Notes under the pieces: model-generated
The model's database searches: none
What the model was told of the DNA's origin: nothing
Seen by the model: only the letters and a program-made list of their open reading frames with translations
In this document: positions 6,448 through 43,994 of the stretch, one piece after another
Position numbering within the stretch: the stretch's first letter is position 1
Layout: every line of letters starts with the position of its first letter
Position numbers and translations under genes: made by a program
From: Owenia fusiformis
Lineage: Eukaryota > Annelida > Polychaeta > Sabellida > Oweniidae
NCBI GenBank assembly: GCA_903813345.2
Contig: CAIIXF020000002.1
Location: 8,393,555-8,457,554, forward strand
DNA length: 64,000 nt
Reading direction: 5' to 3'

Positions 6448-7556
6448 TACAAATATATCAAGAAAAAACATTTTGTTCTAGTTTCATAATTAGACTCAAC
6501 CATAATGTTAGTCACATGAGTTGCCCGAGGCTTTCACTTTAGTTCCATAACAAGGCTCAGCACTATTTAACAATTTAAATTCATTCACAAAAAAGGCTAC
6601 AGCCTCCATGAAAATATTATACCTATGTATAAAAACATCCAAAATGCAGTAATGTGTGTAAATAGTATATACATAACTCTATGTATTGCAAAAATTCCCA
6701 TACAGTGAAAAATGTATCTTGCAATATTTAAATTAACTGCCTGATTGGCTTAATTTTGTAAAATACAATTTAGATCTAGCCAACTACATGCCTTTTTTCT
6801 TTATTCATTTTCGATTCCACACTTTTTGTGTTTCAGAACATGTCTCGATGAAATTTGTTTACATTTGTCAACCATGAAATTTTCACCAGTTTTTTCTCGA
6901 CAGGGTGCCAAATCCTAATGCTACCTTTTTTATCAAAATATCTCAACATTTCATATGGAGAGGGTCCAAAGTTTTTCAGCAGAGTGTGTCACTCAGTTGC
7001 TCCCATTTTTGTCAGATCACTCACTGACGTGTGTCAATTTCATTAATTTTTTACCAACCTTTAATGCTGGTTCCATAATGAGAGTCAACCTTTAATCCCA
7101 GTTTCATAATGACACACAACCTTTAATCCCAGTTTCACATTGACACACAACCTTAAATACCTGTTCCATATTTTGCCCACAATTTTTCAGTTTAGAGATC
7201 AAAATTTTTCCATTTTCATTGCTCGTCCCATGAAGTTGTTCACTTGGTTGTTTGATAATCCATATCCTGTTTCCTGTTTGATGAGATTGGACAGGAACAT
7301 GATTCCCTATAAAACACGATACATTCATTTTTAATTCATTTATATCGATTTTTGGAATTTAGCAATAAAAAAGGCAGATTAAAGATAATTCTTTGATGTA
7401 AGGTTTAGTGTTAAACGGTTCTAACAAATTCTGATTTCTGCATTTTTGATCTTGAATTTCAACTTTTATACATGACCCCATATCTAAATTCTTATTCGGA
7501 AAGTAAAGTTAGGATTAAAGGAGGATTGCAGGGGCTCCCAGGGTTCCAACTCAATA

Positions 7557-7637: not shown

Positions 7638-10600
7638 CTGGTCTATTTCCTGTGGAGTGAGGTTGCTAAAGCTGGCTCTAACAAAGGCACATTGCTCATC
7701 AGAGAATGCCAAGAAAACACTACCTGGCACAACTAGCACCTAATAACAAGAGAAATATGTCTTACTCTTTAGAACAAAAAAATAGATTTTGTAATCGCAT
7801 CCATGATTACATATATTTTTGATTTATCAATACATCATTTGTAAAATGTGAAAGGATGAGAGTCCCTAAAAACCCTATTATATATAAATACATGGAGATT
7901 TTTGTAGATTTTTTGTAGATAAAAATGTACTTACCATTTTATAATTTAAATAATAATTGCTAATATAACCCTTCATACTCAAGTTATTAAAATGCCAACT
8001 CAAGTTTGAGGTTTCATTTCACTTACATTATTTTTTAAACCTTTATCTTTGATGGTCTCTCTTGAATCCTTGATGTTGTTGATGCGTATCCATAGATACA
8101 TGCCACCAGAGGGCTCTGACCATTCAGCCATACCTAGAAATAGATGGAGCTTTGAAGATATTACAAAGGAGGCATGTTCCCAGAAATCTTAGGTATGTGA
8201 AAATTAAATCATGTTCTCAAATGTCTTGGATAAGGGATAATTAATGCAGGTGCCTAAATTAAACAGACAAAGGAGCTATATCCCCAAATGCCCAAGACAC
8301 ATGACCAAGAGGATAAATTCAACTCTGAAGTATTCATTTTTACGCATAAAAATGTATTGAAATTTATATTCCATACAGACCTGTTCAAGGATTTTTTACT
8401 AAAATCACCAGTTTTTAAAGTATATTTTCTCATCAACAGTTAACCCAAATTAATTGAAACTCTACATATGTAAAGGACACATCATCAGCTTTCCAAAAAA
8501 ATAAATTTAGTTGCCATAGCAACAGTGGTTGCTATGGTAACCATGGGAACAATATAGTCAAAAATCTCATTTTTACCCCCCAAAGATCAATTTGGTGAAA
8601 AATATTTTTTTCAAATCAATGTTAAAAGTGATAAAAACCATATTTATAAGTAATTTGATGGAAAATAAGGTATTTTAGGGTATTTAATAGCACATTTGAC
8701 CATTACATGTACTAATTGAAAGGGTTTTTAGCGATTTTACTAAAAATCTGAGATTTTCAGCTATTTTGGGTGTGTTTTATGGTGATTACACCATATTGAT
8801 TCATAGGATGACTTGAGAATAATATGAATTCAACAAGGTATTGTATAATAATGCCCTGGGAGTTTAAAATTACAACAGCTGTTACAATTGTATGAAAAGA
8901 TAACTGTTGCCATGGTAACAACCATTTTGGTTCATTGTACTGTATCTCTCAAAAACACATAATGCACATCTGTTTTAAATAATGTATGTTGTATTATATG
9001 TATTATTATTCAAGTCAATAAATAAATATATATATATATATTATTATTATACATCTAATGATTAATAAATATAATAAGTTATTATTTGTTGCTATGGTAA
9101 CTTGTTTACTACCCTTTAACTACTGTACTAGTAAATATATATTCTTACATCACTCGAAAACAAAATGATATAACTCGGCCAAATTTTATCGGATTTTGCT
9201 CATTTTTGCACCAAAATGATCAGAATAAAATGCATAATATAGTAGCGATGTATAGATACTGTACCATACATATGGAAAACATAATGTAATACAATGTATG
9301 TCAGTATCAAGACAAATGGTTTCCACCCAGAATGCATTTTAAACAATGTCACCAACCCAAGGAGGATTGGCTCCCAGAGTGCACCACCGATATTCTGTCC
9401 CATATATGGGTATGTCGTAATACAAAATTCGAATTCAAACAGCCGCCATTTTGTTCACTTCAACATTTAAATCGTGAATTTTGGTCTTATTTCCAAACGA
9501 AAAATTCCAAAACTCACAAGAAATGATCGAGATATTGGTTCGAATCTTTTGAACTGTTTATTTTGAATTTATAGTCGGTTTTAATTTCAGAAAATAACGA
9601 CATTTCGACGTTTTCATTGTTGGAAAATATCGAGTTTCGATCCTGGGAGCCAATCCTCCTTGTCACCAACCTATAAGTTCTAAGAATGGGCTGTACATCT
9701 ACCCTGATAATAAAAAAGGTGAACATTAATGGTGGTGATTACACCATATAGTCACTTTTTGATAGTGACAGAAACAAAACATTCAATTTATTTAAAAACA
9801 TCAAAAATGTTTCTCTTATCTCCATACACAAGGCCTAGTAGCTCAATTAAGTTATCTTTTAATTTTAAAATAGTATGTACTCTACCTCTTTCAGAAAAGG
9901 TGAAAAGGCTTTTGAATTCAACACTCTCATAAAAGGATGCTTTGATATAATTTATTTGAGATTTGAGGGCAAATTTCTTGTCAAGGAGGGTATGTTTATT
10001 CTTTAACAATAGATCAACTTGACCCTTTGTGACACATTTACCATCTGATGATATTGCATTTGCCAGTCTTTTTTCCCTATTTTCCCTGCTAAGTTTTTGT
10101 CGTTCAAAAATTAGTAACTTTGCTTGCCTATGAGGCTTGTTTTTTTCTGAAATGTGTTTTAAATGCTTTTTTATTGTCACAGTGGTATATTTCCTTTCCA
10201 ATTTTCGAGTTAAACTAATTGCATTTTGTAAAACCTGATTTTTTCTGACTTTATTAATAGTTTTATTTGCCCTCATGGCCACTTTACTGTTGATGGTATC
10301 CCAACGAGCACTTGGCTCTTTTTGTCTCTGCTGACTATACTGTCCCAGGTTAGATTCATTTCTGTCGCTGTGAGACTCTTTTCCACTCAACATTGATATC
10401 ATATGTGGAGTGGGAGAATAGTATATTCCTTCCTCAAAATATTCCTGAGAAATTTTCCTAAGGGCAGTAGCACCCAGGTTACAACCTGATATCAAATAGT
10501 CTATGGCTCTATCTATGATATTTTGTGAGTTTGAGAGTAACTGAGCTCCAACAGGCATGGACAATTTTTTTCCATCAGTTCTCAAGAACTCGCTATTGAA

Positions 10601-13600
10601 TAACGTTTTTTCTCCATTTAAAATTTCCCTTGCATTATTTTTATCTACATTTTGTAAAAATTGAAAAGCATTGTTAATGTAGGGTCCAACAGACAAAACG
10701 TCATGACTTTTTAACATAGTCATAAATTGTTTATGATATGAAGAGAAAGCATCTGCTGCTGTTAGTTGGGCTAAAACTTCATCATTTGCAAGGGCATTTT
10801 TGATTAAAATATCTTTGTTTCTTAGAGTGGCACCTTGTGAAAGAAGTTCCTCATAAAATTCAATGATATATGGAATAGCTTTAATGATCTTCCCAGACTC
10901 ATACTCATGTCTGTAGTGTTGTCAAGTTATTCATAGTGTGATCTACTGTACCCCTGGTAACTTTCCAAGTATTTCATATCTGAGTATTTTACTCATTCAG
11001 TGAAAGGGTATATATAGTGCGAGTAACAGAAGCACGTGGTCTGTTTTCTCGTTCGTGCTGTGTCGTGACGTCTGTTTCGTGTCCCTTGTGCTGTATACGT
11101 GGCTTGCTTTATAGATGTGTATACTGAGGTATTTATATTGTTTATTTCACATACTGTTGTCAAGTAAAAATAAACAACAGGTAATTATTTGTAACATAAA
11201 CAATTAATAAATTACAGCAAGCTACATTCAAGGTTTCTCTAAAAGAATTTGGTCAGTAGGTTCACAGTTGTATTTTAAACATTTCTATTTCATTGTACAC
11301 ATAGTAGAGTTTTGCTCAATTTATTTATAGTTTTTGAGACGAATATATTTTGAGGAAAGTGGACTACGTTCTCGAAAGTACCTTTATACTACGTTTGCCC
11401 TGTCGGAGTACCTAACCCAGAAGTGACATTAGATTTACTCCAACGCAATCTTCAGAATTCGGACTATATCGGAATATGATATGTGACCATATATCGATAT
11501 CCAGAGGGAGGTCTGCTGATATTATTAAGTATCTGATGCCAAGACTGTTTTGCTGTCTTAAATTTCAAATATAATGTTTGACTTTCCTAAAGTACTATTG
11601 TAAAACATTATCATAATAGTTTACCATTATTGTGTACAAATACATAGCATTATTCTTAAAATACTAATTTATGTCAAATATATCACTTTAACAGTTTATT
11701 GAACCTGACAACTTGACAAGTGTCTGTTCTTATTAACATAAGAAAATGTTGGAATATTGTAGTCTTTTTCAGCACACCAGCCTCTCCAGACATCCGCACG
11801 GCTAAACTCATTTTTATTGGCATGATCTGGACTAAAAACTGAACTTATTGTTTCAACAATCTTACCACCCATTGCCTCAAATGTTCTTCCTGGCCGCGCC
11901 ATATTGCTTTGCTCATACTTGCCTAATAACCCTAGATCTGGTTGTATTTGATGCATTCCCTCATAAAAGGATCTGCTTACTTTTGCACCAGAATGCATTT
12001 GGCAGGCACTCAGGTAAAGTTCTTTCAAATTGATGGTTTGCGCTGGTGTTAAGATATCCTCCTGAAGTAACTTTTTAAGACAGTCCAAATGTTCTAACTC
12101 CAATTCCCTATGAAGTTTTTTATTGACATGATCCCCCATGAATTCTGTTATGTATGCAATAGATTGTTTGGAAGAATTGGGAATATTAAGTTGATCTAAA
12201 ATAGATGTTGTTTTTTCCAAAGAGTTCTTTATATGATCTAGTTGAGCCTCTGATGTGTGGTTTGGAAGATTCTCTACCCTAGACTCAAGAGAATTGCCAT
12301 CATTAAAAGTCCATATGGTTGACACATGTTCTAGGCCTTTCCTTGTTGTTGTATCCTGGGCAACACGTATGCCATTCTGTGCTCTTGCCTCCATTTCAAG
12401 TCCAACTTGAGCATCACTTAGAAGGCCTCCGCGACGAACCATTCTGCCAGAAGTAGTTCTGAAATCAAATGTGAACAGTTTATTTAAAAAATCAATCTGG
12501 CATGGTACATTTGATACCAAGTGCCAACTGGTGCCACAGAAAGTGAAAATAGGCTGAATCATTTTTCTAATCAATAGGAATCCCTTGGATAAGACAAGTT
12601 AAAGTTTATTTTTCCAGATAGGTCTTGATGCAAGACTAAGGAATTGTCTAAAAACCTCTGATCATTATACCAATGCAATTAAACATTAATTATGTGAAGT
12701 TTATGTGTCTGTTTATAATTCAATTACTCTGCTACAGAATTAAACCATTATTGATTTTGCATCAAAATTATTGTACTATTACTTAATTTGGTCGCTGTTT
12801 TAATTTGGCGGATCCGCTAAATTCCCATAAGTGCGTTATAATATTGCAATTCCGCCAAATTAAGAACCCACCAAATGCATGTAATGATCAAGCAGCAAAT
12901 CGGCCAAAATAAGTAGGGCAAAATTAAGTAGAAGTATAGTACTCAAAATGGATTATAAACTTAAAAATGACAAATAAAGAAATGTATACCTCGATGGAGT
13001 ACATTCTAGTCTTTTACCACAGTATGCAGTCAACACAGTGTTTTGAATTTTACCAGCTATCGTTGCGTTGACCCCCATATTCTGTAACTCAGTTGTCACA
13101 AGCATTGTTTTATCATTATATGCACCTTTCTCAACAGTTTTAATCATTGATGACCTTCTTTGTCTATTTCTCTTCTTTATTTTTCTTAGACTTTTCTTTA
13201 AATTGTCTCTTTCTTTTGAAATTTGACTTATTGTTTCATTGTTTTTATTTAAATCTTCTTTCAAAGCATTGATAGTTGCATCTGATTTATTTGACATATG
13301 CTCAAATCTAATGTTCTGTTTCTGTAACTTTTTCATTGATAATTCCTCTTCATTTTTCATTTGGAGTTTTCTTTTTAAACTCAAAGTTTTGTTTTCTTTA
13401 TTAATCAATTGTTCTTTAAGTTTTTTCCTTTTCTGCTTTTCCTGTTGACATAATAATTCATTTTTGTCGATTAATAATTTCTATTTTTTAGACACAGTTT
13501 TCATGATTTGAATTGTTCTTTTACTTGTGTGACAAGAACTACAAAATACTAGTTTTCTTCGAGAAATTTTAGTTCCATTTGTCACATTAAAGGTTCTGTC

Positions 13601-16600
13601 ACTAGTAGGTGTACATGTATTTGTAAGATCAGGATTTGTAGATTTATATGTTGATACAGGAATAATGAAAGCGTTCTCCTTTTTCCATTTAGATCGAGAA
13701 ATCTTTTTTGCAACCGAATCGATGAATGCTTGGCTATAGTCTGATCCACTAAGTTCTGACAGGAAATATGCAAACAAACGTTTGTGCCTTAACTGCTCTT
13801 TTGTTATTTTGTAGGAAGCATGTAGAAGCTGCTTTACCAGTTTAGTGGGTAGTAAATGTTTATTTGCTTCATGGGACAGGTGCTTTCGTAATCCCAAATA
13901 CTTTAATGATGACTTTTCACCAGGCACCTGGAAATACAAATAAAAGTTTATATGATAACTGTTTATATTCTGATGGTAACCTGCACTTCCTGTTTACACA
14001 ATAATCAAATATGTAAGTTAGCACAATGAGTCTGCCTGCCATAAAAGTAGACCTACAATTCCTACATGTTCAATTGTATTGATATCAAAATTCAAAATGT
14101 GAGTGAACTTCATTTATCTTTTTCATTTTAGACTTAAAGGCAGAATCAGATATATAGGGGTGACAAAATTACAAGCAACATGTACGATTGACCCACCAAT
14201 CTATTCCTTACAATCTCAATTACAATATCTCCAAAAAGATTCACGATAGGCCTATATTATAAATTGGTAAAGTTATCATGGATTCAAAGTGCAGAAATAG
14301 GTGAAAAATGTTTAAATTCTCCCAAATAATAAGAATGGTTACGGTACCATTCTTATAGAAAAATAACACATTATTGTAAAAATCTTAAGTTTACCTGAAA
14401 TAAAGTGTGCACTTTGGGGATTTTCAGAAAATAGAAATGAGAAGGAATGACATGAGCTAGAAATATTCTAAAATTGAAACAATTTTTTGTTAGGCCTTCT
14501 CGCTATATCTGATTCTCTCTTTAAGACATTATACCCAACATTTTATGTACTGGGGTATGCCGAGATTTACTACTGTATCTCTTTGAATTTTAAAACTTGA
14601 ATACTTGAGAAGATAAATGTAAACAAAAACATGAATATCAAATCCAAGCTTGATCATCTTTATACATGTTACATACAAAAGTTATGATTACAGCAGTGTA
14701 CATGTGCAGTATGTTAGATTTGCCATTTGCTGTATCTTGGTATAACTCACAGACTCAAATGTTTATGTAAAATTTATACCTGTGGCAAATCATCAATTGC
14801 TATTTCAAACTCTTTCAGGGCTGTATCCTGCCACTGCCTAGAATGCCCCTTGGTCATTGATTCTGCCATTGATGCTGAGATCTGAAATGTTCAATGGCTA
14901 TAATTAAAATACATTCTTATGAATATAATGTCAGTCTGATATACTGATGAAAATGTCTTGAAAATCAGTCACCAAATGAGACTTTCAACATGGATCAAAA
15001 TATAGTAACATATGTAAGGTTGATTTGGATTTTTTCCAAACCCGTAATGTGACCGATACCAGCAATGCTTCATTTATCTCATGCCGCCTACACTTAATAA
15101 TTAGGGCTAAATAGGCCCTTGACCTCTATATTCAAGCATGAGTCCATGTTCACCCCTCCCCCCACAAAAAATGTACCACTAACATACACACTTTCTAATA
15201 GATAATAGGGCCTCTGAAAAAGTACAAGGGCTTGATGCAAGACTATTGTATGTCTGTTGATAAGTGATTAAATGAAACCATGATCAAATTACTTAGTATT
15301 TAAAAGCATGAATTAATATCAAATCAAACTAGACTACCAGTATGTCAGTACAGTATGGCATGTATGCATATCAGTAATTTGAACTGCAAGAAAATCAATC
15401 AAGGCTCTGGGTTTTTTACAATTGAAAATGAAGGTGAAAGAAGAAAATCATCACAAAATAACTATAGATTGTTATACATGAACATGTTAAATGGACTGCT
15501 ATAACCATCTCGACCTCTGATACATAACAAATCACCGAAATATTTCCACATTGAAAAACTTGAAAGCAGAGTGGGCGATAATAGACTATGGTTCATTTCC
15601 TGGTTTCTAAAATAAATAATTTCTGAAAGGATATACGATAAATGATAAAAATACATTATTGGGGCATAGTTCAAATCAATAGTTGGTTTTTTAGAGAGTA
15701 GGAAGCGTAACAGCGATGAAATCTTTCAATTTCTTGACGTTTTAAAAAAAAATTCAACGACGTCTTTCACGCCATTTTGTTTGTTTCAAAATTATGTCGT
15801 TGTGACCTGGGTCAACTTTGCACTCCCATTTCTAAGCCAATATACAATGTATTCCAATGAAATCAGTCCCAATCTAAAGTTTGATATCTCTTGTTTGCCG
15901 AGGTGGCCGGCGTTTTGAAATATACACATAAATTATAAGGTAAATACCTAAAAAACAACGGAACAACTTACCCGCTTCAAAATTTCCCAAACGGCGGGTG
16001 GCTGAAATAATGTGATGCCTCGTCCTGGCATTTGGCAAAGTTTCAAAGCATTTGACCAATGAATGACCTAGAAATTGAAAATAAGCCAGGGAAATCCACG
16101 ACGATAAATCAACCTACCTTCTTCAGTCCAAATCGCGTCATAACAATGTCTGCAAACCCTGTATTTCCTGAAGTGAACTTGTTGTAACGTCTTCAGAGAT
16201 ACATTTCCCGGGAACGTAGAAATGTGATATTTTAACAAACGAGTACTTTGTATATATTCTCTCAATAAATGCATTTATTTTCTTAGTCAAAAAATAACTG
16301 GGGCAGTAAAAGATGGTCAAACTCTGGGCACTTTGGGGTATATCTACTCTGGTACAGATATATGTCAATCATGACGTCATGCGAAAATTTGGCCAGTTTC
16401 TTCAAACTTCCAACTTTTAAATGGTTGAATTAAAGTACTTAGGATAGTCAGATTGATTCCAAACTTGTCATGCTGAGAGAACAGTGTACATATTTGTAAA
16501 GAAAATCAATAAAAAAGAACTTTGACATTATATGCCCCTATTGTGGATGCATCATTTGGGATGATTTTTGGCCAAAATCCTTGAACAGGTCTGTTCCATA

Positions 16601-19600
16601 AGACTAATAGTATTTATAATTAAGCAATAAAGACCGAGATTTTATGATTTATGGTGTAATAATGACCGAAAATTTTATTCTGTTCATTGTTAAAAGACCG
16701 AAATCGCGTAGCGATTGAGGTCTTTGGCAATGGCCACAATAAAATTTGAGGTCATATATTTGACATTGATGTCACGTATCATATTAGAATTTTTAACATA
16801 AGCCACAGGCTTTCAAGATTCATGATGAAAGATTAGGATGTTTTAATTCACCATAATATGCATGAAAATGCATGCAGGTGAAAAAACTGAGTTACCCTGT
16901 ACTATTGTACTGACCTCTAAGATACTTATCAGCTGCTAGCAGCATACAGTCTCTCTTCTGCTTATGTAGTTCAGCAACCCTGAGAGAAAAGAGAATACAC
17001 TAATGGAATATGAGGTTACATAATGATTTATTCTCACTGTAAAGATTGTGTTTATTCAGAAGAGGGTATATGTATGAAATCAGGGTCTGCATGTCATTTT
17101 CTAATTTCTCATTTTATATGTCTTTGCTGCACTTTGCAGCTTGAGGCCAAATTTTGAAAATTTTAATGTTCAGTACTTTTTAAAAATTCCCTGACTTTTT
17201 TCTGACCTTTTGACGAAATTCTAAAATTTGTTAACCATTTTGGCGAGACTTTTCAATTGTTTTTACCAGAGATTTCCCTCACTATGGCAATGAGTGAAAA
17301 CATCAGGAGTAACAAGATCCCCCACCTTGTAGCTTAAAAAGTTAAACAATACTCACCTCTCTGTATGGGCTTTATATCCAGAGACACCCCAAGTGTTGAG
17401 GATCTGATACAGCACCAACTGAAAAGACATTTCAATCAATTGTCATTCATCGTTACGGAAATTAAAATAGATGAATGTAATGGAAAAGAGCAATTTCACA
17501 CAAGCTGCAATAACCAATAATCAATGATAAGTTTGGCAAATTGGCAAAACTTCAAGGTGAAAACCGCAGTTATTTTGCTTCAACATTTTTATTTTTTACA
17601 GTAGAGTTGCCATCCTCCTAAGCAGGTATCCAGAATCCGTACCTCCTTCTTCCCCCTGCTATAACCAATTTGGAAGCGCTCGATTAAACAAAATCACGTG
17701 ATCTTATTATGCGCAATGACTTATACATGATTTCTGTCGCAGTGTTGCGACAGCCAATCAGATTGCAACTTCTTAATGGGGAAATGCTAACTGCTTATCG
17801 CAGGGGGTAAAAAGAAAGAATATATTCTGGATTTCGAGGTCCCGTGATCGAAGGATGTAGAGTTGCATATTTGTGACAATATTTAAGTAGCAATATTGCA
17901 CTTGGGGACTACCTTACCTGTGACATTGCACTTGGGGACTACCTTACCTATGATATTGCACTTGGGGATTATCTTACCTGTGATATTGCACTTGGGTTAT
18001 CTTGTCTGTGATATTGCACCTGGGGACTATCTTACCTGTGATATTGTACTTGGGGTTATCTTACCTGTGATATTGCAATTAGGGACTACCTTACCTGTGA
18101 TATTGCACTTGGGGTTATCTTACCTGTGATATTGCACTTGGGGACTATCTTACCTGTGATATTGCACTTGGGGACTACCTTACCTGTGATACTGCACTTG
18201 GGGACTATTTTACCTGTGATATTGCACTTGGGGACTGCTCTGCAGCCTGTATATGATGAACAATCTTGTCCACTAGTGTAGTATGACCTGTTACCCAACC
18301 AAGTCTGTAGCTGAAATTCAAAATTCAATCAGTAACTCAATAGATTTTTCAGACATACAAGAAGAGGAGCAATATATAGCAGTACCAAAATAGTTCAGAC
18401 AAAAGATTTAAATAGCTGTGGAAAAAGTATAACACATATGGATATTAGACATTTATAGGACAATTTTCATTGTTTTAGTTCACATGCTTTGTAAATTTTT
18501 CCAATGTCTTACAGATTGCTTTAAGCTAATGTAATTATTGACAGCCTGCAATACAGTCCCTCACCGACTGCTCAATCAGTGTATAATCCCATCTTTGTGA
18601 AATCAGCTTGTTTGCGCTCAAAATATCTTAAAATGGTAACAGATACTGAAAACATCTCTTTTATTTGCAATTTCCAAATATGGAAAACCATGAAAATCTG
18701 CAAATAATGAAATATGTAGACAAAAAACGGATGATAAAATCAAACACTAGTGTGTTAAAGAATTGCCTGTTTTGAAACCAAAACAACCTACCCTGGTCCC
18801 ATTGTGTTTTCAAAAGAGTCAAATCTGAGAACTCTTCCATCCACATCAAGTGAGAGATAGCTGGGGGTCAGCACCTGTATTAAGCAGAAGACTAGTTATT
18901 CAAGAAGACAACAATACAGGGTGTTCCAAAAGTAACAGGACTGGTGCTGGCATTTTGTCAATTTTGCATTGAGTGTCTTCAGATTTTCACAAATTGTACT
19001 TTGAAGTATTGCAACTAAAATTCTAAAGTTTCAGAAAAAATTATGAAATGCGGTTAGAGTTATGGTTACTATAGTAACATGACATCCCAATACCCGGGGC
19101 AACTTTTTTCCTGAAAATGTGATATTTAACATTTTTGTATTACTGAAGAAAGTATCAGATTCATCTATTATAATACAACACTTCTTGTTTACTTAAGGAG
19201 TTGCTTCGTTGTGAAGATGTTGCTATACAACTCAGATTCAAGTATAATTTCATAATGAGAATAATATTTATCCAATTTCCTGGAATATCACTACAGGTAT
19301 GTATAACAGTCTGAACAATTCACAGTTGCGTTTTTGAAAAGACGCAATTTGAAGCCAGCCATCCACCTTGATAGCTCACCTGCCCGCAGGTCACCATTAA
19401 AGACCATGCAGCTATAGTGGAGCTAGGTCTTGCGGTCTAAAGCCATGCACCATACTCTTCTGATCATGCAATATCTAATCTTTACTTATATTGAGAACGG
19501 AGTGCTTATCAGTGCTGTAAGACCTTTAAAGATGAGAATGACCTTCTCCAAATTGTCCAATCGACCCTGCGTGACATGTCCTCAAATGGGTTCACTCATG

Positions 19601-22600
19601 TGTTTGGGTCATGGATACAGAGTACTACTCTTGTACTGACCAAAGAAAAGCCTATTTTTCAAAGTATAGAGGATGCATAGGAATATCAAGTGATGTAAAA
19701 CAAATGGAATTCCCACCAGTTGTTGCATTTCAACTTTGATATGGCATGTACAAAATGATATGGTATGTACAAAATGCTTCATGTCTCTGTAACTTTTTGC
19801 ATTGCCCCGGGTATTGTGATGTCATATTACTAAAGCAACCATAACTCTACCCAAGTTTAATATATTTTGTCGAAACTTTGCAGTCTGAGTAAGGACACAT
19901 GAATGTATATTATGTAAAATTTTGAAGATGATTGGTGCATATTTAACAAAATGCCAGCACCAGTCCTGTTACTTTTGGAACACCCTGTAACTTATATTTT
20001 CAAAATGATTGTAATCTGACTTTGATAAGCGTAATGTGTAAACTGAAAGGAAAAAAAATAAACAAATATGTAATTCAATTCCTTCTAAAAATATTATACG
20101 TGGGCCTGCTTAACTTGATGATTGAAAGAATTTATGAAAAAATGTACCTCAATTGATTAAAATCCATCGTGTACACACTATACAGTTAACTGCTTTTAAT
20201 TCTTTCAAGAAACAACATTTAAGGGAGAATACTCACAGAGGAAAATTGTAGGAAATAATTGGGATCATCCTCCAGTATCAACATATTGTACTTCCGACAT
20301 ATCTAAAACACACAAAATGTAAGTCTAAAATTTCATCACAGATTTGAACAGTGCAGTTACACACACCAGTTCACTTATGGATAAATTGTTATCATTAATG
20401 GATAAAGAAGAGTGAATATGTGATTTGATTGATTGATTGAGAACCAATTCAGTGCATCTGAAGATATTATGAAAAATACCTCATAAATCTCCAGCTTGCG
20501 TTGCTCAGTAATGGTGGCTCCAGTAGGGTCCGCCGCAGTAGGCATTGTATACAACACCCTCGCAACATCAGAATGCTGACTATGCGCTGCAGCTGGGTGC
20601 CAACGGCCCATCTGGTACATCAAAGACTCGGGAATGATTCCAAATTTGTCAGTCTCAACTTCTATGATCCTAGCATTTAAGGCTCGCAGCTGAAGAATGG
20701 ACATTTAAGCCTCGATCACATTTGCTCTACGGCAGACATAGCTTCACAAAATCGATTTAAAAAACTACATCATACTGCTTATCCCCATATTTTATGTTGC
20801 ATATTTCCGTCGATTTTGGAAAGCTACTGACGCCATACCGTTTTTGTAGATCAAATGTGATTGAGGCATTAGTTACATTAATTAGCCTATCAAAATATTC
20901 AATAATAATCTTTAAATAATTGTACCAATTATTCAAATACATCTAATAACTATATTTACTCAAAGCTGTTGTCTCAAATCTGTCAAAGTTACTCAAGGCT
21001 GTTATCATATACTCAATGCTTACTTACAGCTGTGAGTGCTCTATGATTTGTGGGTCTTTCAACAAGGACAAAATCCCCAGGCTTCAGCAACATCTCAAAT
21101 GCCTACAACAATGATATGTATTTACTCAAATGCCTACAACAATGATATGTATTAACTCAAATGCCTACAACAATGATATGTATTTACTCAAATGCCTAGA
21201 ACAGTAACATGTATATACACATAGAAATTAACATTAGAATCTTCCTGGAGCCCAAATCCACTACGAACCACCCCCCAGGCCAAGTCCCCATCTTTATATT
21301 GACATTGCGACTAGAAATCACCCTTGGTATATGCAGCTAACGAAAATTGACCGGTACGGGTCAAAAGCTGGACCGGTACGGGTTAACGGTTTTATTTGAA
21401 TTTAAAACAGCCATAACTTGCTCAATATTGACTTCCTCGTGTCTAATTTGAAATATATGATGCCTCCCGATGCTTTTAAGTACCCCAATTTTTTACAGAT
21501 TTTTAAACGGACAAAAACTCTCTAAATGCGCATTTATGCTCTTTTCTCTCGAGAACGACTGTCTCATTTTCACGATAACTTTTATTTAGTACTTCTAACA
21601 TATAAGATCTATTTTTCCCCATCAAGGTATGATGTAAATGACATGCTATTTACATCTTGTGAGTTTCAATGACGCGCGTTTGATTTTATAAAAAATGCCA
21701 AACTTTGTGACAAAGAATTTCCTCCTGCTTGCAGTGAGAAGATGGACCGGTTCGAGGCAATCTGCTTGCAGCGAGAAGACGGACCGGTTCGGGGCAATAG
21801 CTGATGAAATTTTTTGTCACAAAGTTTGGCATTTTTTATGAAATCAAACGCGCGTCATTGAAACTCACAAGATGTAAATAGCATGTCATTTACATCATAC
21901 CTTGGTGGGGAAAAATAGATCTTATATGTTAGAAGTACTAAAAGTTATCGTGAAAATGAGACAGTCGTTCTCGTGAGAAAAGAGCATAAATGCGCATTTA
22001 GAGAGTTTTGGTCCGTTTAAAAATCTGTAAAAAATTGGGGTACTTAAAAGCATCGGGAGGCATCATATATTTCAAATTAGACACGAGGAAGTCAATATTG
22101 AGCAAGTTATGGCTATATTAAATTCAAATAAAACCGTTAACCCGTACCGGTCCAGCTTTTGACCCGTACCGGTCAATTTCCGTTAGCTGCGTATACCAAG
22201 GATGGAAATGGTCCAAATTTTTACAAAGGAGTCTAATCTATGGAAAAGAAGCAAACAATATGCAGTGTAAAATGTTAGGAGCAAAATTTTAGAAATCTAT
22301 GCCTATATTTCCCTTAAACCCCTCATTTTATTTTCTGAAATGAATTGTGTTATATGATGAAATATGTCAATAAATAAACAGTAAGTTGCGGAAATGTCTA
22401 AATTCATTAGAATTGAAAAAAGAACATCCAATCAAAATTGTTGTCACATACATATGTATAATTAAACTCAAAGCATTGATATAAAATAAAATTACAACTG
22501 TTGACAGAATAGGCATGACATCTATAATGCTACTAGTAAAAAAATATATGTATGCCAGTTTTTGAAGGTCACTCAAGTCACTAGTATGCTGCCTTATAAG

Positions 22601-25600
22601 TGAAACTGAAATCATACTATTCTATAAAACTGTCTCTTAATAGGCATTTACGATAAATAGTGCCATATTTGATCCAACAGAGAAACTATAATATTGACTT
22701 TATATACATAATGTCATCAGTTGTAGGTAGCAATCTATCCATGCAAAAATAGTATGAACTTATTGCTAATTTTGAGAAAGTACAACCAATGACTTCATCA
22801 ATCTCGCCAATATATTATAGTTTCTCTGATGGAACAAAAGATGGCACAATTTATCGGAAATGTCTATTTTTATTTACATATGCCTAAGTAAATCGTATTT
22901 GTTATAAACACTATTAACCGAACAGACTTTGAAATAAAAATTAAATTCATCTCCTTAATTGTATGCCTACCTTACAGGGTTCCTCTCTCCACCAACCCTG
23001 TTTTCTAACCCCATATGGAGGATAACTATGCCCTCATTCATACAACTCAAGCACACACCAATATAAAACATATAAACTTACCCTCCTTTTTTACAATTTT
23101 AACCCGCTTTTCCAACCATTACATATGCTTTTAAAATTTAAGCTATTTATACTTGGTAGAATGTAAATTTTTGATTCTGTAGAATTTTTTTTTTTTTGAT
23201 AAAAAAAGTCGATACATTATAGAAACATCTTTACCCCCAAAATATTCCTTTTAAACATTTAAATAAAATTATATTTAAAAATGACAATTTACTTTTGATA
23301 TCCCCTTACTTCTCTAAATTCTGAAAGGAAATGAAAACCTGAAAAGAACAATCTTGAATTCATTCATTTTTCTTTTTTGGTGAAACATGAATATCCCCTG
23401 ATTTAGAAAAATGACCAAAGTATGTATCACTCTTTCAAAATCTCCAAAATATCAAGTGACACAGTAAAAATATTGTGTTGCAATTTTTCAAGTACCACAT
23501 GGAAATTGTAAAGTGCATAAACTATGTATGGTATTTTTTCAAAAACTGTTTACCCATTCTTTCAAAAAAGGTTGACACATTTCAAATAATACTCCATTTA
23601 TTAGGTACAAGGTCCCAAATATTGTCTTTAAACAAAATAGATTAGTCATTAACATTATAGCCCTATCCTATCACTGTCAAGTATAATTGTGTGTCCCTAT
23701 ACATGTCATTGTGTGTCATAATGTGTCCCTTCAATTTGTCATGATCAGTGGCAACACATTTTACGTTACCACACTTTTCAAAATTATGTGTCACTACATA
23801 TGTTATTGTGTGTCACTATATATATCATTGTGTGTCACTACATAATTGTCAGTGTCTATCTGAGCATAATATGATTATGTAAGCCCCTTCCCTCCTTGTG
23901 TATATTATGATAAAATGATGTTCAGATATTAGAGTCACAAATCAATACACAAGTCTAATCTACGCCATTTAATCATACGCAACATTCAGACATTCTCAAC
24001 CACCATTATTGTGTCTACTGTCTGTAAACACTGTCACATGACAAGGATATCTATAGATATTGTCACATATGACTGTCTATAAACATGTTCACATGACTCT
24101 GTAAACACTGTCCCAGTGACTGTATATAAACATGTTCATATGACTCTGAAAACTCTGTCCCAGTGACTGTATATAAACATGTTCACATGATTCTGTAAAT
24201 ACTGTCACATGACAGTAGATAAACATTGTCCCATGACTATACAATGTCTATTGTAACGTGGCTATCTATAGACATTGTCTCATATGACTGACTTTACTGT
24301 CCATAAACACTGTCACATGACTTAGTGTATTGTTGGCCACACTTTCTGACAATGTACAATAATAATACTGACATCATCATTAATAAATTTTGACTCAAAG
24401 CTAGCCATTCTTTCTTCTACAACATTCACTAAACACTCACACCATATTCAAGTGTCCCCCCTTCCCACACCTTGTGCCCTCAATACCTTCCCAAGCCCCG
24501 CCTGACTGCCTGTTGTCATGGCAATCTGTAAATTGTTTCCCTCTTTGCCCTTGGCTGCCTGAGGAGGCTGGTGGTATGTCATCTGGAGCTCTTCTAGGAA
24601 CTTCACCATTGGTGGATAGCTTGAATAAAAAATTATCATTATACATTTGTAATATATATCTTTTATTGACTCAATAACCATGACATGTAAATGACATATT
24701 AGTCACTACAGTGTACAAAAAACTACAAACTACATACTGTAACTAGATATAATTAACTCCATGGACAGACTGATGGACTGATGAATGGAGGGCTTCACTA
24801 TATCCCTACCAAACTTCATCCCTTAGGGTTATAATGATCCTTTATTATTACTTTGTGTTTTATTTGGAAGGTTAAAGATGCAAGCGCCAGCCATGCCACC
24901 ACATTCTCGTAAAGAAGGGCTGAGTTCATTCATGGCCTTTCTCTTGAAAGCCCATGGTTCATTATACATTGTTATGATGTTTATACTCAATCTTATCATC
25001 AAATTAACTTCAAGTTAATGCAGGGGTTTCATTTATAGCAACAGGCAACAGGCGATTTTCACCAGTTGCTTTCACAAAATCGTTTGTTGTTTTTAGGAAC
25101 TTTACAATTTTTCCATGTTATATTTATGATTTCCATTAATTTATTATGATAAGATCCATTATGATCTAAATTTTGCTTATTCTGCCCTATGGGCTCCCCA
25201 TACCTACCCATATGAGCTAGTTTCTGTCTGTGCAACTGCCATCTGAGACTGGTCCAAGTATATAGGTGTTCCATCCCTGAAAAATGAATGCATATTTTTA
25301 GAATTCAGGGGTTTAGATAGGATCTCCTTAAAATTGTTTGCCCATGCTTATGTTTTATTTCTATGGTACTTACTCAATAGAAATCTCAGAGAAAACTGCA
25401 TATAGTTAAAGAGGAGGGAAAACCCCATGATTCAATTGATGACATACGATTTTCTCCTTCGCACACCTCCTTTCCCGGAAGTACATATATTTGTTTCCCC
25501 TCCATCTTGGTTTTCAAAGTTTTCAAATTGACCTAGTTTTAAACCAATCAACGATCGACTTGCTTAACCAATCAGCGACGATGTCATCTCAATACAGATT

Positions 25601-26540
25601 TACATTATAAGCGTATGTCATCTTTGAACCCTGGGGTTTCTCCCCCTCTTATATAGTTACATAGTTTTCAACGCAAGAAAAATCTTTGGAAAAATTATCA
25701 ATAAAGGCCCCCAATAAATTAGGCACGTGCAAAATTAAATGTTTTTTTCAGAAAAAAATAATTTAAAAGGAACCTTTCTGCTAATAGATTAAAACAATTG
25801 GTGGAAGCTGAGAATGGCCACAAACAATTCACGATCCCTTGGGAGTTACCCCCATAGATGTGGGGTTATTTTGAGTTTTTTGATATTTAGGACATTTGTT
25901 AGAGAAACAAATGTCCTAAATATAAAAAAAAACTCAAAATAACCCCACATTTATGGGGGTATTGGGAGTCTTCCCTAAGGCTTGGGATCCACTGTCTGTT
26001 TTTAAATGAACAATGACTTGTGAAAACAACAGTTCAAAAACAGCCATTTGGCAACTTACTGAAGTGTGAAACTGGCATGTGAGATTGGGAGATTGACAGT
26101 CGCTGGTATTCCTTGAACCATCGAAACTGCTGGCAGTTGGTTTCCATCACCACCATCCTGCATATGTTCTACAATACATGTAATTATAAGTCAGAACAAG
26201 CAAATTAAATTAGAAAATTGCGGCTCAAAATTCAATTTTTCGCAAAATGTGACACATGTGTAACACCAATGACACTTTGGTATTCAGTAGTTCAATGCAG
26301 ATATAGCCTAGATAAAATAAATAGAGGAAAAAAGTTTGATGCAATATTTAAAAAAATCGACGGTTTAAATGAAGAAATCGGATAAAGTGCAATCTTACTG
26401 TATTCTTCTATTGCGTCTGGCCGCCTAAATTTGGATTTTTCGGTGAGAAATCTAAAATAATTCACTCGGTGTTTATTGTTCTCCGACATTGCCATCTTGT
26501 TTTGTTGTTGTGGATTTGGTTTGTACCTTTGGTCTGCCAT
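7638..26540 (-). CDS. KAT2/AADAT-like aminotransferase homologue lacking the catalytic lysine (13 exons, 3' end missing)
   Basis: Exons on the minus strand: 26540-26399, 26168-26060, 25276-25208, 24619-24487, 21102-21028, 20689-20480, 20302-20237, 18874-18792, 18310-18214, 17418-17357, 16979-16915, 8133-8027 and 7739-7638. All have GT-AG borders and compatible phases, giving 440 codons without a stop. The order matches fold-type I kynurenine/2-aminoadipate aminotransferase: MTTGSQAGLGK (PLP phosphate region), KPGDFVLVERP, the large domain ending KLEIYE, LILEDDPNYFLQF, LDVDGRVLRFDSF, GYRLGWVTG, GGMYLWIR, and CAFVRASFSN with the carboxylate-binding Arg. The lysine of DSFSK is absent: the sequence is DSFENTMGPG. 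The PLP-stacking Tyr of EPAYSG is replaced (ERPTNHR), and the NPTG Asn is Asp (DPTG). The start may instead be the ATG at 26495. The last approx. 15 residues should lie on a further exon below 7637 that I did not find. It is most likely an expressed pseudoenzyme; a recent pseudogene is less likely given 13 clean exons. Confidence 0.85.
8510..9101. promoter_or_regulatory. Cluster of four X-box-like 14-bp palindromes
   Basis: GTTGCCATAGCAAC (8510-8523), GTTGCTATGGTAAC (8528-8541), GTTGCCATGGTAAC (8906-8919) and GTTGCTATGGTAAC (9088-9101). All fit the RFX X-box pattern GTNRCC-N-RGYAAC. They lie within 730 bp of the left end of the 8.2-kb element, so they could be subterminal transposase sites rather than host regulatory sites. 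Function is not shown. Confidence 0.5.
9358..9662. mobile_element. 305-bp MULE-like MITE with 9-bp target duplication
   Basis: Ends CAAGGAGGATTGGCTCCCAG and its reverse complement (CTGGGAGCC..CCTCCTTG), 20 bp each. The flanks TCACCAACC at 9349-9357 and 9663-9671 are a perfect 9-bp direct repeat, the size typical of Mutator-like elements. There is no coding capacity. It is inserted in the 3' flank of the gene carried by the 8.2-kb element. Confidence 0.8.
9788..10916 (-). pseudogene. Probable 3' exon of the transposon-borne gene
   Basis: An open frame runs from the edge of the LTR-like block (about 10916) to a stop at 9788. It encodes about 375 residues beginning HYRHEYESGKIIKAIPYI. It is rich in Lys, Asn and Leu and has a helical, basic C-terminal half (KLERKYTTVTIKKHLKHI). 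No named domain is recognised. The segment AMRANKTINKVRK and the general order resemble the C-terminal part of a large multi-copy uncharacterised protein family I have seen in cnidarian and mollusc genomes, but I cannot name it. Either the exon's own 3' splice site is at 10917 (ACACTACAG) or the exon is cut by the LTR-like insertion. Confidence 0.5.
10917..11179 (+). mobile_element. Possible solo LTR
   Basis: The block starts TGTTGTCAAG and ends CAACA, a perfect 5-bp TGTTG/CAACA inverted end. It holds a TATA box (TATATATAG near 11010), a GC-richer initiator-like stretch (tgtcgtgacgtctgtttcgtg), and an AATAAA near 11169, in LTR order. I find no clean 5-bp target duplication, so the boundaries, and the call itself, are weak. 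Confidence 0.35.
11180..11695. other. Non-coding stretch inside the 8.2-kb element
   Basis: No exon is seen. It separates the LTR-like block from the third exon of the nested gene. It may hold 5' internal sequence of a truncated LTR element or simply an intron/3' UTR of the nested gene. Confidence 0.4.
11696..14881 (-). pseudogene. Multi-exon gene of the 8.2-kb element, broken by an in-frame TAG
   Basis: Exons: 14881-14780 (ATG at 14869, MAESMTKGHSRQWQDT), 13927-12990 and 12458-11696, with GT-AG borders and matching phases (0 and 2). The second exon is interrupted at 13481-13483 by TAG after MKTVSKK. The same frame continues at once as KLLIDKNELLCQQEK and stays open for 160 further codons, so this is a point nonsense change, not a frameshift. 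The first part is basic with a CSSC pair. The middle is a predicted coiled coil (KLQMKNEEELSMKKLQKQ; KERDNLKKSLRKIKKRNRQR). The third exon contains GIRVAQDTTTRKGLEHV, which resembles the D-T/E-T-T start of a DDE/RNase-H-like core, and ACQMHSGAKVSRSF. The product is unrecognised. A transposase role is inferred only from its position inside paired TIRs. It probably continues into the 9788-10916 exon. Confidence 0.6.
14132..14525. mobile_element. MITE-like repeat, second copy of the AGAATCAGAT family
   Basis: Left end cttaaaggcagaatcagata and right end tatctgattctctctttaag are inverted, with an approx. 390-bp interior. The internal order matches the copy at 6231-6447. It is inserted between the first two exons of the nested gene. 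Confidence 0.65.
14882..16593. other. 5' flank of the nested gene within the 8.2-kb element
   Basis: No coding exon is convincing. If the nested gene has non-coding 5' exons or a promoter they should lie here, up to the terminal repeat at 16574-16593. Confidence 0.4.
17628..17832. repeat. MITE-like inverted repeat in an aminotransferase intron
   Basis: Left atccagaatccgtacctcc plus ttcttccccctgc pairs imperfectly with right gcagggggtaaaaagaaag plus aatatattctggat. Arms of about 32 bp enclose about 140 bp. Confidence 0.5.
17895..18220. repeat. 30-bp minisatellite of 11 units, each containing the exon-9 splice donor
   Basis: On the minus strand each unit reads a copy of the last approx. 21 nt of exon 9 (..AAGTGCAATATCACAG) followed by GTAAGATAG or GTAAGGTAG, then repeats. 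The first unit's GT at 18213-18212 is the donor of exon 9 of the aminotransferase gene. Ten of the 11 units keep AG|GTAA; the unit near 17995-18020 has lost the GT. Use of a downstream donor would add 30 nt in frame, but the added sequence carries TAG or TAA. Confidence 0.9.
18915..19989. mobile_element. 1.07-kb mariner/Tc1-like non-autonomous element with approx. 190-bp arms
   Basis: Ends TACAGGGTGTTCCAAAAGTA and the reverse complement. Arm similarity continues through AACAGGACTGGTGCTGGC to a second block (taaccataactct, cccggg) about 180 bp in. TA flanks fit Tc1/mariner insertion. No transposase frame is seen inside. Confidence 0.75.
20709..20867. mobile_element. MITE with GCCTCGATCACATTTG termini, copy 1
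   Basis: Left gcctcgatcacatttgctct pairs with right gatcaaatgtgattgaggc. Related copies lie at about 40845-41085 and 46562-46674. This copy ends only about 20 bp upstream of the 3' splice site of aminotransferase exon 6. Confidence 0.65.
21095..21198. repeat. 31-bp tandem repeat duplicating the exon-5 splice acceptor
   Basis: The unit tcaaatgcctacaacaatga plus tatgtatttac is repeated about 3.4 times. On the minus strand each unit carries TTGTTGTAG|GCATTTGA, the acceptor and first bases of aminotransferase exon 5 (real border at 21102/21103). The unit is not a multiple of 3, so upstream acceptors would shift the frame. Confidence 0.85.
21323..22200. mobile_element. 878-bp near-perfect palindromic foldback element
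   Basis: Arms of about 410 bp (left starting cttggtatatgcagctaacg, right ending cgttagctgcgtataccaag) are nearly identical in inverted orientation. The centre holds two tandem copies of a approx. 38-bp unit with ggaccggttcg. ACCGGTACGGGT is repeated twice near each end. It lies in the intron between aminotransferase exons 5 and 4. It has no coding capacity. Confidence 0.9.
23680..24335. repeat. Degenerate tandem repeats in an intron
   Basis: 23680-23860 repeats TGTGTCAC(T)ATA-type units. 24010-24335 repeats units of about 60 bp built from ctataaacatgttcacatga and actctgtaaacactgtccc. Both are in the aminotransferase intron and are non-coding. Confidence 0.6.
25841..25968. repeat. Small palindromic hairpin repeat
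   Basis: taccc-ccatagatgtggggttattt and aggacatttgtt pair with the inverted aacaaatgtcct and aaaataaccccacattta, leaving a loop of a few bases. Arms are about 60 bp and almost identical. Confidence 0.8.
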
Positions 26541-26936
26541 TATTGATAAGTCTGATCGCCAAATCAGCAAAAGTTACAGTTCTGATTGTTTCTGCTATTT
26601 CTTTCTTGCAAATTATCAATATTCGAATCTATATGATTCGGGTACAGATAGCAAATCTGCATTAAAATGCAGAGATTACTTATCTTGGAATTTGTTTCTA
26701 GAACGGAAGTGTTAGTTTGTTTCGTTCAGTGCTAAAGGCCCCATACCCTAAACACTATTATATACTATTAATTTCAAATATTTGATAGGTAATACAGTAT
26801 TATTCAGCCCAGGAATATATATTTCTTCAATAAATTTATATTTTTATCTGCTAAACTCTTTATCTATTGGGTTGATTAGGTCAGTGTCAAGCTTTAGGGT
26901 TTTGTTAAAGGTTGTAGAAGAGGTCTTCAAATTAAA
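26541..26936. promoter_or_regulatory. Putative bidirectional promoter region
   Basis: Only 396 bp separate the aminotransferase start (minus) from the EBPL start (plus). The stretch has no repeat of the families seen elsewhere. Sharing of promoter elements is inferred from the head-to-head layout alone; no core element is convincing. Confidence 0.4.
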
Positions 26937-30026
<3,090 letters not shown>

Positions 30027-43300: not shown

Positions 43301-43994
43301 TATGTATCCAACAGACTGACTAGAAGTCAGTCTGTTATGATGTACTACTTTCCTGTGGAAATTGCAGTGAATTTTTTTGCACAAAATTATCAATTAGAGG
43401 AACCATTTCTTCAATAAAATAAACATTACAAAATTTCAATTAAATAGTAAGGTACAATTAAATGCAATAAAAAGTAACACAGCATATTGTCAAGTGGAAA
43501 TAAAGCTAGTTGAAGTAACAAATGAGCAAATTAATTTTACCAATCGGCCATTTTGAATAGCACTTCCTATGTAAACAAATATTTCATATTACCAAACTTT
43601 AACATAGGTGCCTTATAGTCTGAATATAATTCAGACTAAATAGGATCATATAGTCTACACTCACCATGGCGTCATATCGCATTTCATTCATAAACCTCGA
43701 TGTTGCACGGCCCTCAAAAGTAGAAAACCAGATTGTCCCTTGAAACTGATCACCGGCGTCAAGAAATATAACATTGTCATGTTTATCTCGAATGTCTTTT
43801 ACTGCTGTAAAACGGCGAGCAACGCCTCCAAAACATTTATCTTCATCTTTGTCCCCCTGCGAGCATGGCCCGCCATATTTGTTCGACTCGTCTATTCTGG
43901 CATGAACGTCATTTGTATGAATTACTGTTATGTTAAAACCTGATGCTACACTACAAAACGTAAGCACAGTGGTGAGAAAGATATGGCTAAGCAT
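37309..43994 (-). CDS. NT5E: Ecto-5'-nucleotidase (CD73/NT5E), GPI-anchored, 578 aa
   Basis: Nine exons: 43994-43665, 41361-41145, 40782-40597, 40351-40148, 39914-39803, 38842-38688, 38350-38204, 37901-37698 and 37490-37309. All junctions are GT-AG and in phase, giving 579 codons with a stop; human CD73 is 574 aa. The enzyme hydrolyses extracellular AMP to adenosine. A signal peptide (MLSHIFLTTVLTFCSVASG) precedes the metal-binding motifs HTNDVHARID, LDAGDQFQG, ALGNHEFDNH, ALGHSGY and GGHTNNF. The C-terminal substrate domain has KRECNLGNLIADS, HNTGGMRASID (Asn and Arg of the NGGGIR motif kept), MPFGN and ANGGDGY. The substrate-stacking Phe appears as Tyr (MPAYVANGGDG). The tail GPISSAMSSS plus a hydrophobic end fits a GPI signal. 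All catalytic residues are present, so it should be active. Confidence 0.95.
39262..39753. repeat. 69-bp satellite (about 6 units) ending in a pogo-like terminus
   Basis: The unit (taagtcaatggtaaattaca, aatttgggacggagaaaag, atgttcacattgagagg, ttttattaacatg) is repeated about six times from 39290 to 39712. The right end, TCCGATATACAGGTTCCACTGTA cut to its last bases AGGTTCCACTGTA, matches the pogo-like MITE terminus. The block lies in a CD73 intron. A 160-codon minus-strand frame across it is a by-product of the 23-codon period. Confidence 0.8.
40845..41085. mobile_element. MITE with GCCTCGATCACATTTG termini, copy 2
   Basis: The right end gtagagcaaatgtgatcgag matches the family terminus. The left end cacatttgcttcggcaaccg is diverged. 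It sits in the CD73 intron between exons 2 and 3. Confidence 0.5.

Follow-up and report, generated by a model that had tools for sequence, protein, structure and literature searches.

Gene model and genomic context

A gene of the KAT2 (AADAT) aminotransferase type in the annelid Owenia fusiformis has lost its Schiff-base lysine, which raises the question of whether its product is kept for a role other than catalysis or is the remnant of a disabled gene. Here, we analysed a stretch of 64,000 nucleotides (the window), in which this KAT2-like gene lies on the minus strand and consists of 14 coding exons, from position 26540 to 7199, encoding a product of 475 aa. The initial annotation had counted thirteen exons and placed the gene at 18792-21102, a span that covers exons 5-8 only; its observation that the exons join without a stop or frame break holds, as neither occurs in the 475 codons. 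All introns (13/13) are GT-AG and keep the phase.

Exon 1 (26399..26540) encodes a hydrophilic 25-aa N-terminal extension and the NYFRFL arm. At the other end of the gene, exons 10 (17357..17418), 11 (16915..16979), 12 (8027..8133) and 13 (7638..7739) are followed by exon 14 (7199..7306), which contains the C-terminal helix region, a tail reaching ~22 aa past the human end and the stop codon. Intron 11 carries a mobile-element-like insert, a copy of which occurs elsewhere with 99% identity. Upstream, 396 bp (26541..26936) separate the start codon from that of a divergent EBP-like (sterol isomerase) gene, and this gap is possibly a promoter region shared by the two genes. The EBP-like identity was obtained from a query of the joined later exons; an EBP query with the first exon alone gave no match.

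Homology and the intact KAT2 of the same genome

Residues 22-451 of the 475 match residues 3-429 of the human KAT2 chain 6d0a (E 5.2e-106), and the Pfam Aminotran_1_2 match scores 54.9 bits against a cut-off of 19.7. A separate, lysine-bearing KAT2, which the initial annotation had suggested looking for, is present with DSFSK intact at C2:8099538-8108535, on the same contig and strand at a distance of ~292 kb. The KAT2-like protein is 38.9% identical to human KAT2 and 39.1% identical to this copy, hereafter own KAT2.

The two genes of the worm have nine consecutive exons of equal length (exons 5-13, 867 nt), over which the protein alignment is gapless (289 codons), whereas the intron between exons 3 and 4 is placed differently (69+133 nt in the KAT2-like gene and 106+99 nt in own KAT2); the own KAT2 model used in this comparison lacks an assembled last exon. 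Full-domain homology and gene structure thus indicate that, as judged from sequence, the gene is a member of the KAT2/AADAT homologous family. Two protein searches of the genome did not find a third KAT2-type locus. A genome search with Pfam PF00155 gave 10 matches elsewhere, several of them long intronless frames, and included neither KAT2 locus; it is therefore a poor detector of genes divided among short exons.

Losses and retentions at the active site

Replacements affect seven cofactor or substrate residues (human numbering): R20E, Y74E, Y142N, N202D, Y233N, S262E and K263N. The Glu at the R20 equivalent lies in exon 1 (26408-26406) and that at Tyr74 in exon 3 (25208..25276; codon 25224-25222). 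We take Tyr74 to reach the phosphate of the neighbouring subunit's PLP. In exon 5 (21028..21102), which reads ERPTNHR, the PLP-stacking Tyr142 has become Asn (21048-21046), and in exon 6 (20480..20689) NPTG reads DPTG, with Asn202 changed to Asp (20530-20528). Exon 7 (20237..20302) keeps Asp230 and has Asn at Tyr233 (20260-20258). Exon 8 (18792..18874) has GAA (Glu, 18811-18809) for Ser262 and AAC (Asn, 18808-18806) for the Schiff-base Lys263; it ends in LRFDSFENTMGPG and is spliced to YRLGWVTG of exon 9. The initial annotation had reported the losses in exons 5, 6 and 8 and read them as coordinated loss around the cofactor, a reading strengthened by the three further losses found here, Y233N, Y74E and R20E. 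Since the seven replaced codons differ from those of own KAT2 at 13 nucleotides, the change is not a one-base slip.

Other parts of the site are preserved, again as first annotated for VRASF, GSQ and the EDDP Asp. The GSQ phosphate-cup residues are present in exon 4 (24487..24619), Arg270 in exon 9 (18214..18310) and the substrate-carboxylate Arg399 in the VRASF of exon 13; exon 2 (26060..26168) has QG in place of the GG of GGLPNP. Thus, the KAT2-like protein shares the GSQ phosphate cup, Asp230, Arg270 and Arg399 with KAT2/AADAT (human PDB 6d0a, 2r2n, 5eun; own KAT2) and differs from it by the seven replacements and by its longer N- and C-terminal ends.

We compared these positions in 16 proteins: human KAT2, own KAT2 and 14 bacterial relatives, the latter being two loci and 12 of the 40 plasmid matches listed (168 matching records), chosen by genus before residues were inspected; two of the 14 (L003, L004) are weak relatives. 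Five residues invariant in this set (16/16), Y74, N202, Y233, S262 and K263, are all replaced in the KAT2-like protein, with Asn at 263 where the 16 others have Lys, whereas D230, R270, R399, G116 and P203 do not vary among the 17 proteins. Of the eleven PLP contacts given in PMC4848902, six are kept (G116, S117, Q118, D230, P232, R270), and four of the ten non-lysine contacts are replaced (Y142N, N202D, Y233N, S262E). R399 is kept too.

Together, R20E, Y74E, N202D, S262E and K263N shift the charge of the active site by ~-6, which would argue against PLP binding. PLP is probably unbound because of this shift and of a Glu beside the phosphate cup. Since six PLP contacts and R399 are kept, a ligand could still be bound non-covalently.

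To look for a lysine elsewhere, the pattern [DNEGA]S[FYLAM][ST]K was scanned in six frames of the window; none of its 10 matches has a KAT2-like context. One match lies in intron 7 (19202, context SNSLSKQEVLYYNR) and is unlike a KAT2 exon, and a DSFTK at 53386 on the minus strand, ~27 kb upstream of the start codon, likewise stands without KAT2-like context.

Evidence for selection

Conservation in at least 14/16 proteins holds for 36 positions; of these, 6/12 active-site residues are lost compared with 2/24 others (Fisher p 0.009), so that 22/24 highly conserved residues outside the active site are kept; this excess weakens at stricter cut-offs (p 0.036 at 15/16 and 0.215 at 16/16). Substitutions were then scored at the 235 positions at which human KAT2 and own KAT2 carry the same residue. 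Outside the active site there are 102 changes, with a mean BLOSUM62 of 0.04 compared with a neutral expectation of -0.78 (sd 0.15); 0/300 simulations reached the observed mean. The seven active-site changes, with a mean of -0.71 against -0.75, look neutral (151/300 simulations). Neutral-looking changes in the active site combined with conservative changes elsewhere help to separate a pseudoenzyme from a pseudogene in a single genome.

Moreover, neutral simulation from the KAT2-like coding sequence at 0.05 substitutions per site gave a mean of 2.9 stops, and 6.5% of 200 runs were stop-free. For an active-site list of 16 residues (the eleven PLP contacts of PMC4848902 and five added here), the best joint neutral probability of no stop and at least 7/16 residues replaced is ~1e-4, and it is ~2e-4 when the list is restricted to the seven conserved PLP contacts (4/7 replaced); both values are rough, as neutral drift at the active site was assumed and the stop rate was approximated by an exponential. 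Because the BLOSUM and conservation tests integrate changes along the entire branch, some of the constraint that they record may be older than the loss of the lysine, and only the joint calculation addresses the timing of constraint relative to this loss. Taken together, the BLOSUM, conservation and stop-free tests provide indirect evidence, from one branch, that the KAT2-like protein looks maintained by selection.

Age of the duplication

In the best tree, the duplication precedes the split of human and own KAT2 (support 88%), although a lineage-specific duplication is not rejected (AU test p 0.247). The KAT2-like protein shares 34 residues only with human KAT2 and 35 only with own KAT2, an equal split. 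Its branch is long (0.995 compared with 0.439 for own KAT2), and 32/57 four-fold sites differ from own KAT2, with a pairwise dS too high for use.

Interpretation and alternative explanations

The KAT2-like gene is probably an old same-chromosome duplicate of KAT2/AADAT that turned into a pseudoenzyme, as the initial annotation had proposed; the open frame, exon lengths equal to those of the paralogue and conservative changes away from the active site speak for this. By sequence it is a putative pseudoenzyme, in that its catalytic residues are missing while the paralogous enzyme keeps them, and the reading of a KAT2-derived pseudoenzyme under constraint appears well supported. Given that the PLP site is dismantled and the frame intact, the protein is most likely kept for a non-catalytic role. 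Transamination should be impossible for it and PLP binding is probably absent, while the aminotransferase class I fold would be kept, and probably the dimer, and its function would lie in binding or regulation. Since both subunits contribute to each active site in this fold, pairing with KAT2 in a mixed dimer should lower KAT2 activity and not complete it. We therefore place a stand-alone binding or regulatory homodimer first and an inhibitory KAT2 partner second. In a more speculative form, a paralogue of bilaterian age, whose PLP pocket turned from anion-binding to acidic (~-6 charges per site, Arg399 and Asp230 kept), might have acquired a cationic or zwitterionic metabolite as its ligand, or act as a poison in mixed KAT2 dimers, thereby regulating kynurenine/lysine catabolism non-catalytically. 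Own KAT2, the intact sister copy, serves as a control, which makes the pseudoenzyme hypothesis directly testable.

It is conceivable, if doubtful, that the protein instead joins intact KAT2 in a mixed dimer as its non-catalytic subunit, or regulates a partner, tuning KAT2. The accessible texts offer precedents in SPTLC1/LCB1, a partner of SPTLC2 that has no PLP lysine (PMC3794620), and in plant TSB-like, a non-catalytic paralogue that activates its partner TSA (PMC12727527), and they describe KAT2 as a homodimer with its active site at the interface (PMC4848902). Both genes lie on one contig. Against this, residues 1-40 form the least retained 40-residue bin (10/28 of the positions shared by human and own KAT2), and, given the hydrophilic character of the new 25-aa N-terminus, the protein may not enter mitochondria. 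Moreover, Glu replaces Y74, the residue that presumably reaches over to the PLP phosphate of the partner, and a mixed site should suffer from this.

That a recently disabled gene is becoming a pseudogene, its frame open by luck, is improbable: whole-branch averaging in the selection tests, the long branch and the insert in intron 11 would fit it, but seven replacements (13 nucleotide differences) stand against zero stops and frame breaks at a joint neutral probability of ~1e-4, the 289 codons of exons 5-13 are gapless and substitutions away from the active site are conservative. Some enzymes do work without the lysine, such as the His-bearing sugar dehydratases ColD/E1, which use PMP. A working enzyme of another kind, using PMP or another ligand, could draw on the retained D230, R270, S117, Q118 and R399; we consider it very unlikely, as the Asn at K263 would hardly serve as a catalytic base, none of the ring contacts Y142, N202 and Y233 remains and Glu stands at S262 and Y74, the latter presumably also beside the phosphate. 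An assembly error or wrong gene model is the least credible explanation, given GT-AG introns with phase kept throughout, exons 5-13 matching the paralogue in length, a changed motif that differs from DSFSKILSSG at many nucleotides, and a search of the window in which no convincing lysine-bearing alternative exon was found.

Comparison with known PLP-family proteins

SPTLC1 is a fold type I PLP protein of the oxoamine synthase family, TSB-like is a fold type II tryptophan synthase beta, and MocR/GabR regulators keep the lysine and bind PLP. In the MocR/GabR proteins the aminotransferase-like domain serves sensing, according to the available text of PMC6522883. They are among the best NCBIfam matches of both the KAT2-like protein and own KAT2, all below the cut-offs; unlike them, the KAT2-like protein has no Pfam match to a DNA-binding domain. 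TSB-like of eudicots is, as proposed for the KAT2-like gene, a PLP-enzyme duplicate turned non-catalytic and retained as a regulator, with the difference that two key residues are changed and that its function is proven (PMC12727527, in the portion accessible).

No pseudo-KAT2 appeared in the accessible parts of the literature on AADAT/kynurenine aminotransferase, pseudoenzymes and lysine replacement (including PMC9481534 and PMC9309667), in which a pond-snail AADAT-like protein is given 26% identity to human (PMC9481534). The lysine-less proteins of the human and mouse PLP-enzyme sets are, in the accessible part of PMC11016064, AZIN1, AZIN2, SPTLC1 and PDXDC1, with Ldc1 in mouse. As in the KAT2-like gene, the lysine was lost and the gene retained. 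To our knowledge, none of them is a KAT2-type aminotransferase.

SPTLC1/LCB1 of serine palmitoyltransferase offers a parallel, as a paralogue without catalytic lysine beside an active one (accessible part of PMC3794620). SPTLC1 pairs with SPTLC2 and supports catalysis; given Y74E, such a role appears less likely for the KAT2-like protein, in which the residue presumably donated to the partner's active site is not kept. We rate the KAT2-like gene as a putative member of the lysine-less PLP-family proteins such as SPTLC1. These are few, and one of KAT2 type would add a pseudoenzyme to the branch responsible for kynurenic acid synthesis and lysine degradation.

Structure and family of the KAT2-like gene

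The KAT2-like gene runs on the minus strand from 26540 to 7199 of the window (8400753-8420094 on the contig), where 14 exons join into one 475-residue frame whose sole stop lies at its end and 13/13 introns are GT-AG. The initial annotation had correctly described an uninterrupted frame, albeit with 13 exons, and its span (18792-21102) covers exons 5-8 only. Residues 22-451 match residues 3-429 of human KAT2 (6d0a; E 5.2e-106), and the protein passes Pfam Aminotran_1_2. In an alignment of 17 proteins, comprising human KAT2, the intact KAT2 of the same genome ("own KAT2"), the KAT2-like protein and 14 bacterial relatives (L003 and L004 being weak ones, with 18-23% identity to own KAT2), its identity to human KAT2 is 38.9% (160/411). 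Judged from its sequence, it is a KAT2 family member by descent, not a KAT2 enzyme.

An intact KAT2 in the same genome

A protein search of the genome (498 Mb, 525 contigs) gave 18 matches, which arise exon by exon and all lie within the KAT2-like gene or one other locus. The latter, at 8099538-8108535 on the same contig and strand, ~292 kb away, carries DSFSK, and is the separate lysine-bearing gene that the initial annotation had advised looking for. Assembled as 13 exons with the last exon left out, own KAT2 is 57.2% identical to human KAT2 (235/411). The reverse search with its protein returned both loci and one weak match on another contig (C6, E 0.26); an additional copy may exist elsewhere in the genome. 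Exons 5-13 of the two genes are equal in length (75, 210, 66, 83, 97, 62, 65, 107 and 102 nt), while the position of the exon 3/4 split differs. Part of exon 12 of own KAT2 occurs once more within intron 11 of that gene (contig positions 8100212-8100286).

In the best tree, the duplication precedes the split of human and own KAT2 (88% ultrafast bootstrap), a placement that might also stem from long-branch attraction. The data do not reject a lineage-specific duplication (AU p 0.247) and marginally reject placing the KAT2-like protein with human KAT2 (p 0.049). The KAT2-like protein shares 35 residues with own KAT2 only and 34 with human KAT2 only.

Replacement of active-site residues

We compiled 16 active-site residues (human KAT2 numbering), among them R20 and Y74, whose roles in KAT2 we assume. 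The others are P203, S260 and R399, and the eleven PLP contacts named in PMC4848902 (G116, S117, Q118, Y142, N202, D230, P232, Y233, S262, K263 and R270); S260 and R399 are mentioned for docking in PMC11768104. K263, S262, N202, Y233 and Y74, identical in all 16 other proteins, are replaced by N, E, D, N and E, respectively. Moreover, Y142 (aromatic in 16/16 others) is N, and R20 (Arg in 14/16 others) is E. Five of the eleven PLP contacts are thus lost and six kept. G116, D230, P203, R270 and R399 are identical in 17/17 proteins, and S117, Q118, P232 and S260 are likewise retained. The losses of K263, S262, Y142 and N202 were as initially read from the DNA, as was the retention of the GSQ region (G116/S117/Q118), the Asp (D230) and the substrate Arg (R399). 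Together, R20E, Y74E, N202D, S262E and K263N change the net charge by -6, which would disfavour binding of the PLP phosphate.

Signs of selection

When neutral decay of the coding sequence was simulated, stops averaged 2.9 per run at 0.05 substitutions per site; at 0.1 the mean was 5.7, and 0/200 runs remained stop-free. The joint probability of no stop and at least 7/16 active residues replaced was at most ~1e-4 at every neutral time tried (at most ~2e-4 when restricted to the seven conserved PLP contacts), an estimate that leaves out indels and so favours the neutral case. Human and own KAT2 agree at 235 positions, 126 of which are retained. Outside the active site, retention is 22/24 at positions also identical in at least 12/14 bacteria, 17/35 and 25/43 in the intermediate classes, and 53/117 at positions identical in 0-3 bacteria (22/24 vs 53/117, Fisher p 1.5e-5). 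At equal conservation, loss is greater in the active site (6/12 vs 2/24, p 0.009; p 0.036 and 0.215 under stricter cut-offs of 15/16 and 16/16). Substitution outside the active site has been conservative: the 102 changes there average a BLOSUM62 of 0.039 (neutral -0.78, sd 0.15; 0/300 simulations that high). At the active site it has not, the 7 changes averaging -0.71 (neutral -0.75; 151/300). These tests, which concern one branch with proxy ancestors and do not date the lysine loss, argue against a drifting pseudogene.

Neighbours, repeats and mobile elements

An EBP-like (delta8-delta7 sterol isomerase) gene lies head to head with the KAT2-like gene on the plus strand (26937 to ~30030, 3' end approximate), its later exons matching human EBP (6oht, E 3.6e-18). 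The start codons (EBP-like ATG at 26937) are 397 bp apart, so that a shared promoter is plausible.

Mobile-element-like open frames occupy 9788-13939 (minus strand) in intron 11 and interrupt no exon. A Pfam scan of three of these frames gave no match, and the stretch 11699-12460 has at least one other copy, on contig C10 (99% identical, 668-aa open frame); they are probably a recent mobile element of unassigned family. MITE-like inverted repeats are present at 18915-19989, with 188-nt arms (78%) that stop 40 nt before the start of exon 8, and at 21319-22204 in intron 4, with 266-nt arms (97%).

Minisatellites span 3 of the 50 splice junctions of the two KAT2 genes. At 17893-18236, the end of exon 9 and its 5' splice site form a 30-bp unit in 11 copies (≤3 mismatches), in which the next donor, if used, reads into TAG. 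At 21094-21218, the exon 5 acceptor and exon start form a 31-bp unit in 4 copies. In own KAT2, the exon 8 acceptor and exon start form a 33-bp unit in 36 copies (TRF; 6406-7585 of L001, the cut sequence holding this gene).

Elsewhere in the window are a CD225 (IFITM-like) domain encoded in a single open frame (1244-1693, plus; Pfam E 1.5e-11), a DDE_Tnp_4 transposase fragment (60603-61361, minus; Pfam E 1.4e-5), and two similar N-terminal exons in opposite orientations (43599-43994, minus, FNITVIHTNDVHARI; 47199-47588, plus, FNVTVIHTNDCHARI), presumably resembling a 5'-nucleotidase pair.

Proposed role and known counterparts

The sequence, the paralogue and the constraint pattern are direct observations; from them we infer loss of catalysis and of PLP binding, as well as fold, dimer and role. 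Most likely, the KAT2-like protein would be a non-catalytic protein of aminotransferase fold that no longer uses PLP and is kept for binding or regulation. It may form mixed dimers with KAT2, which should inhibit KAT2 rather than complete its site, because Y74 is Glu.

No paper on a KAT2-type pseudoenzyme was found in the literature searched, whose scope excludes most subscription journals; orthologues may well already be annotated automatically under names like 'KAT2-like'. Lysine-less proteins of PLP families include SPTLC1, AZIN1/2 and PDXDC1, according to PMC11016064, and the KAT2-like protein would act as these do. A similar mode of working to that of plant TSB-like, as described in PMC12727527, is proposed for it.
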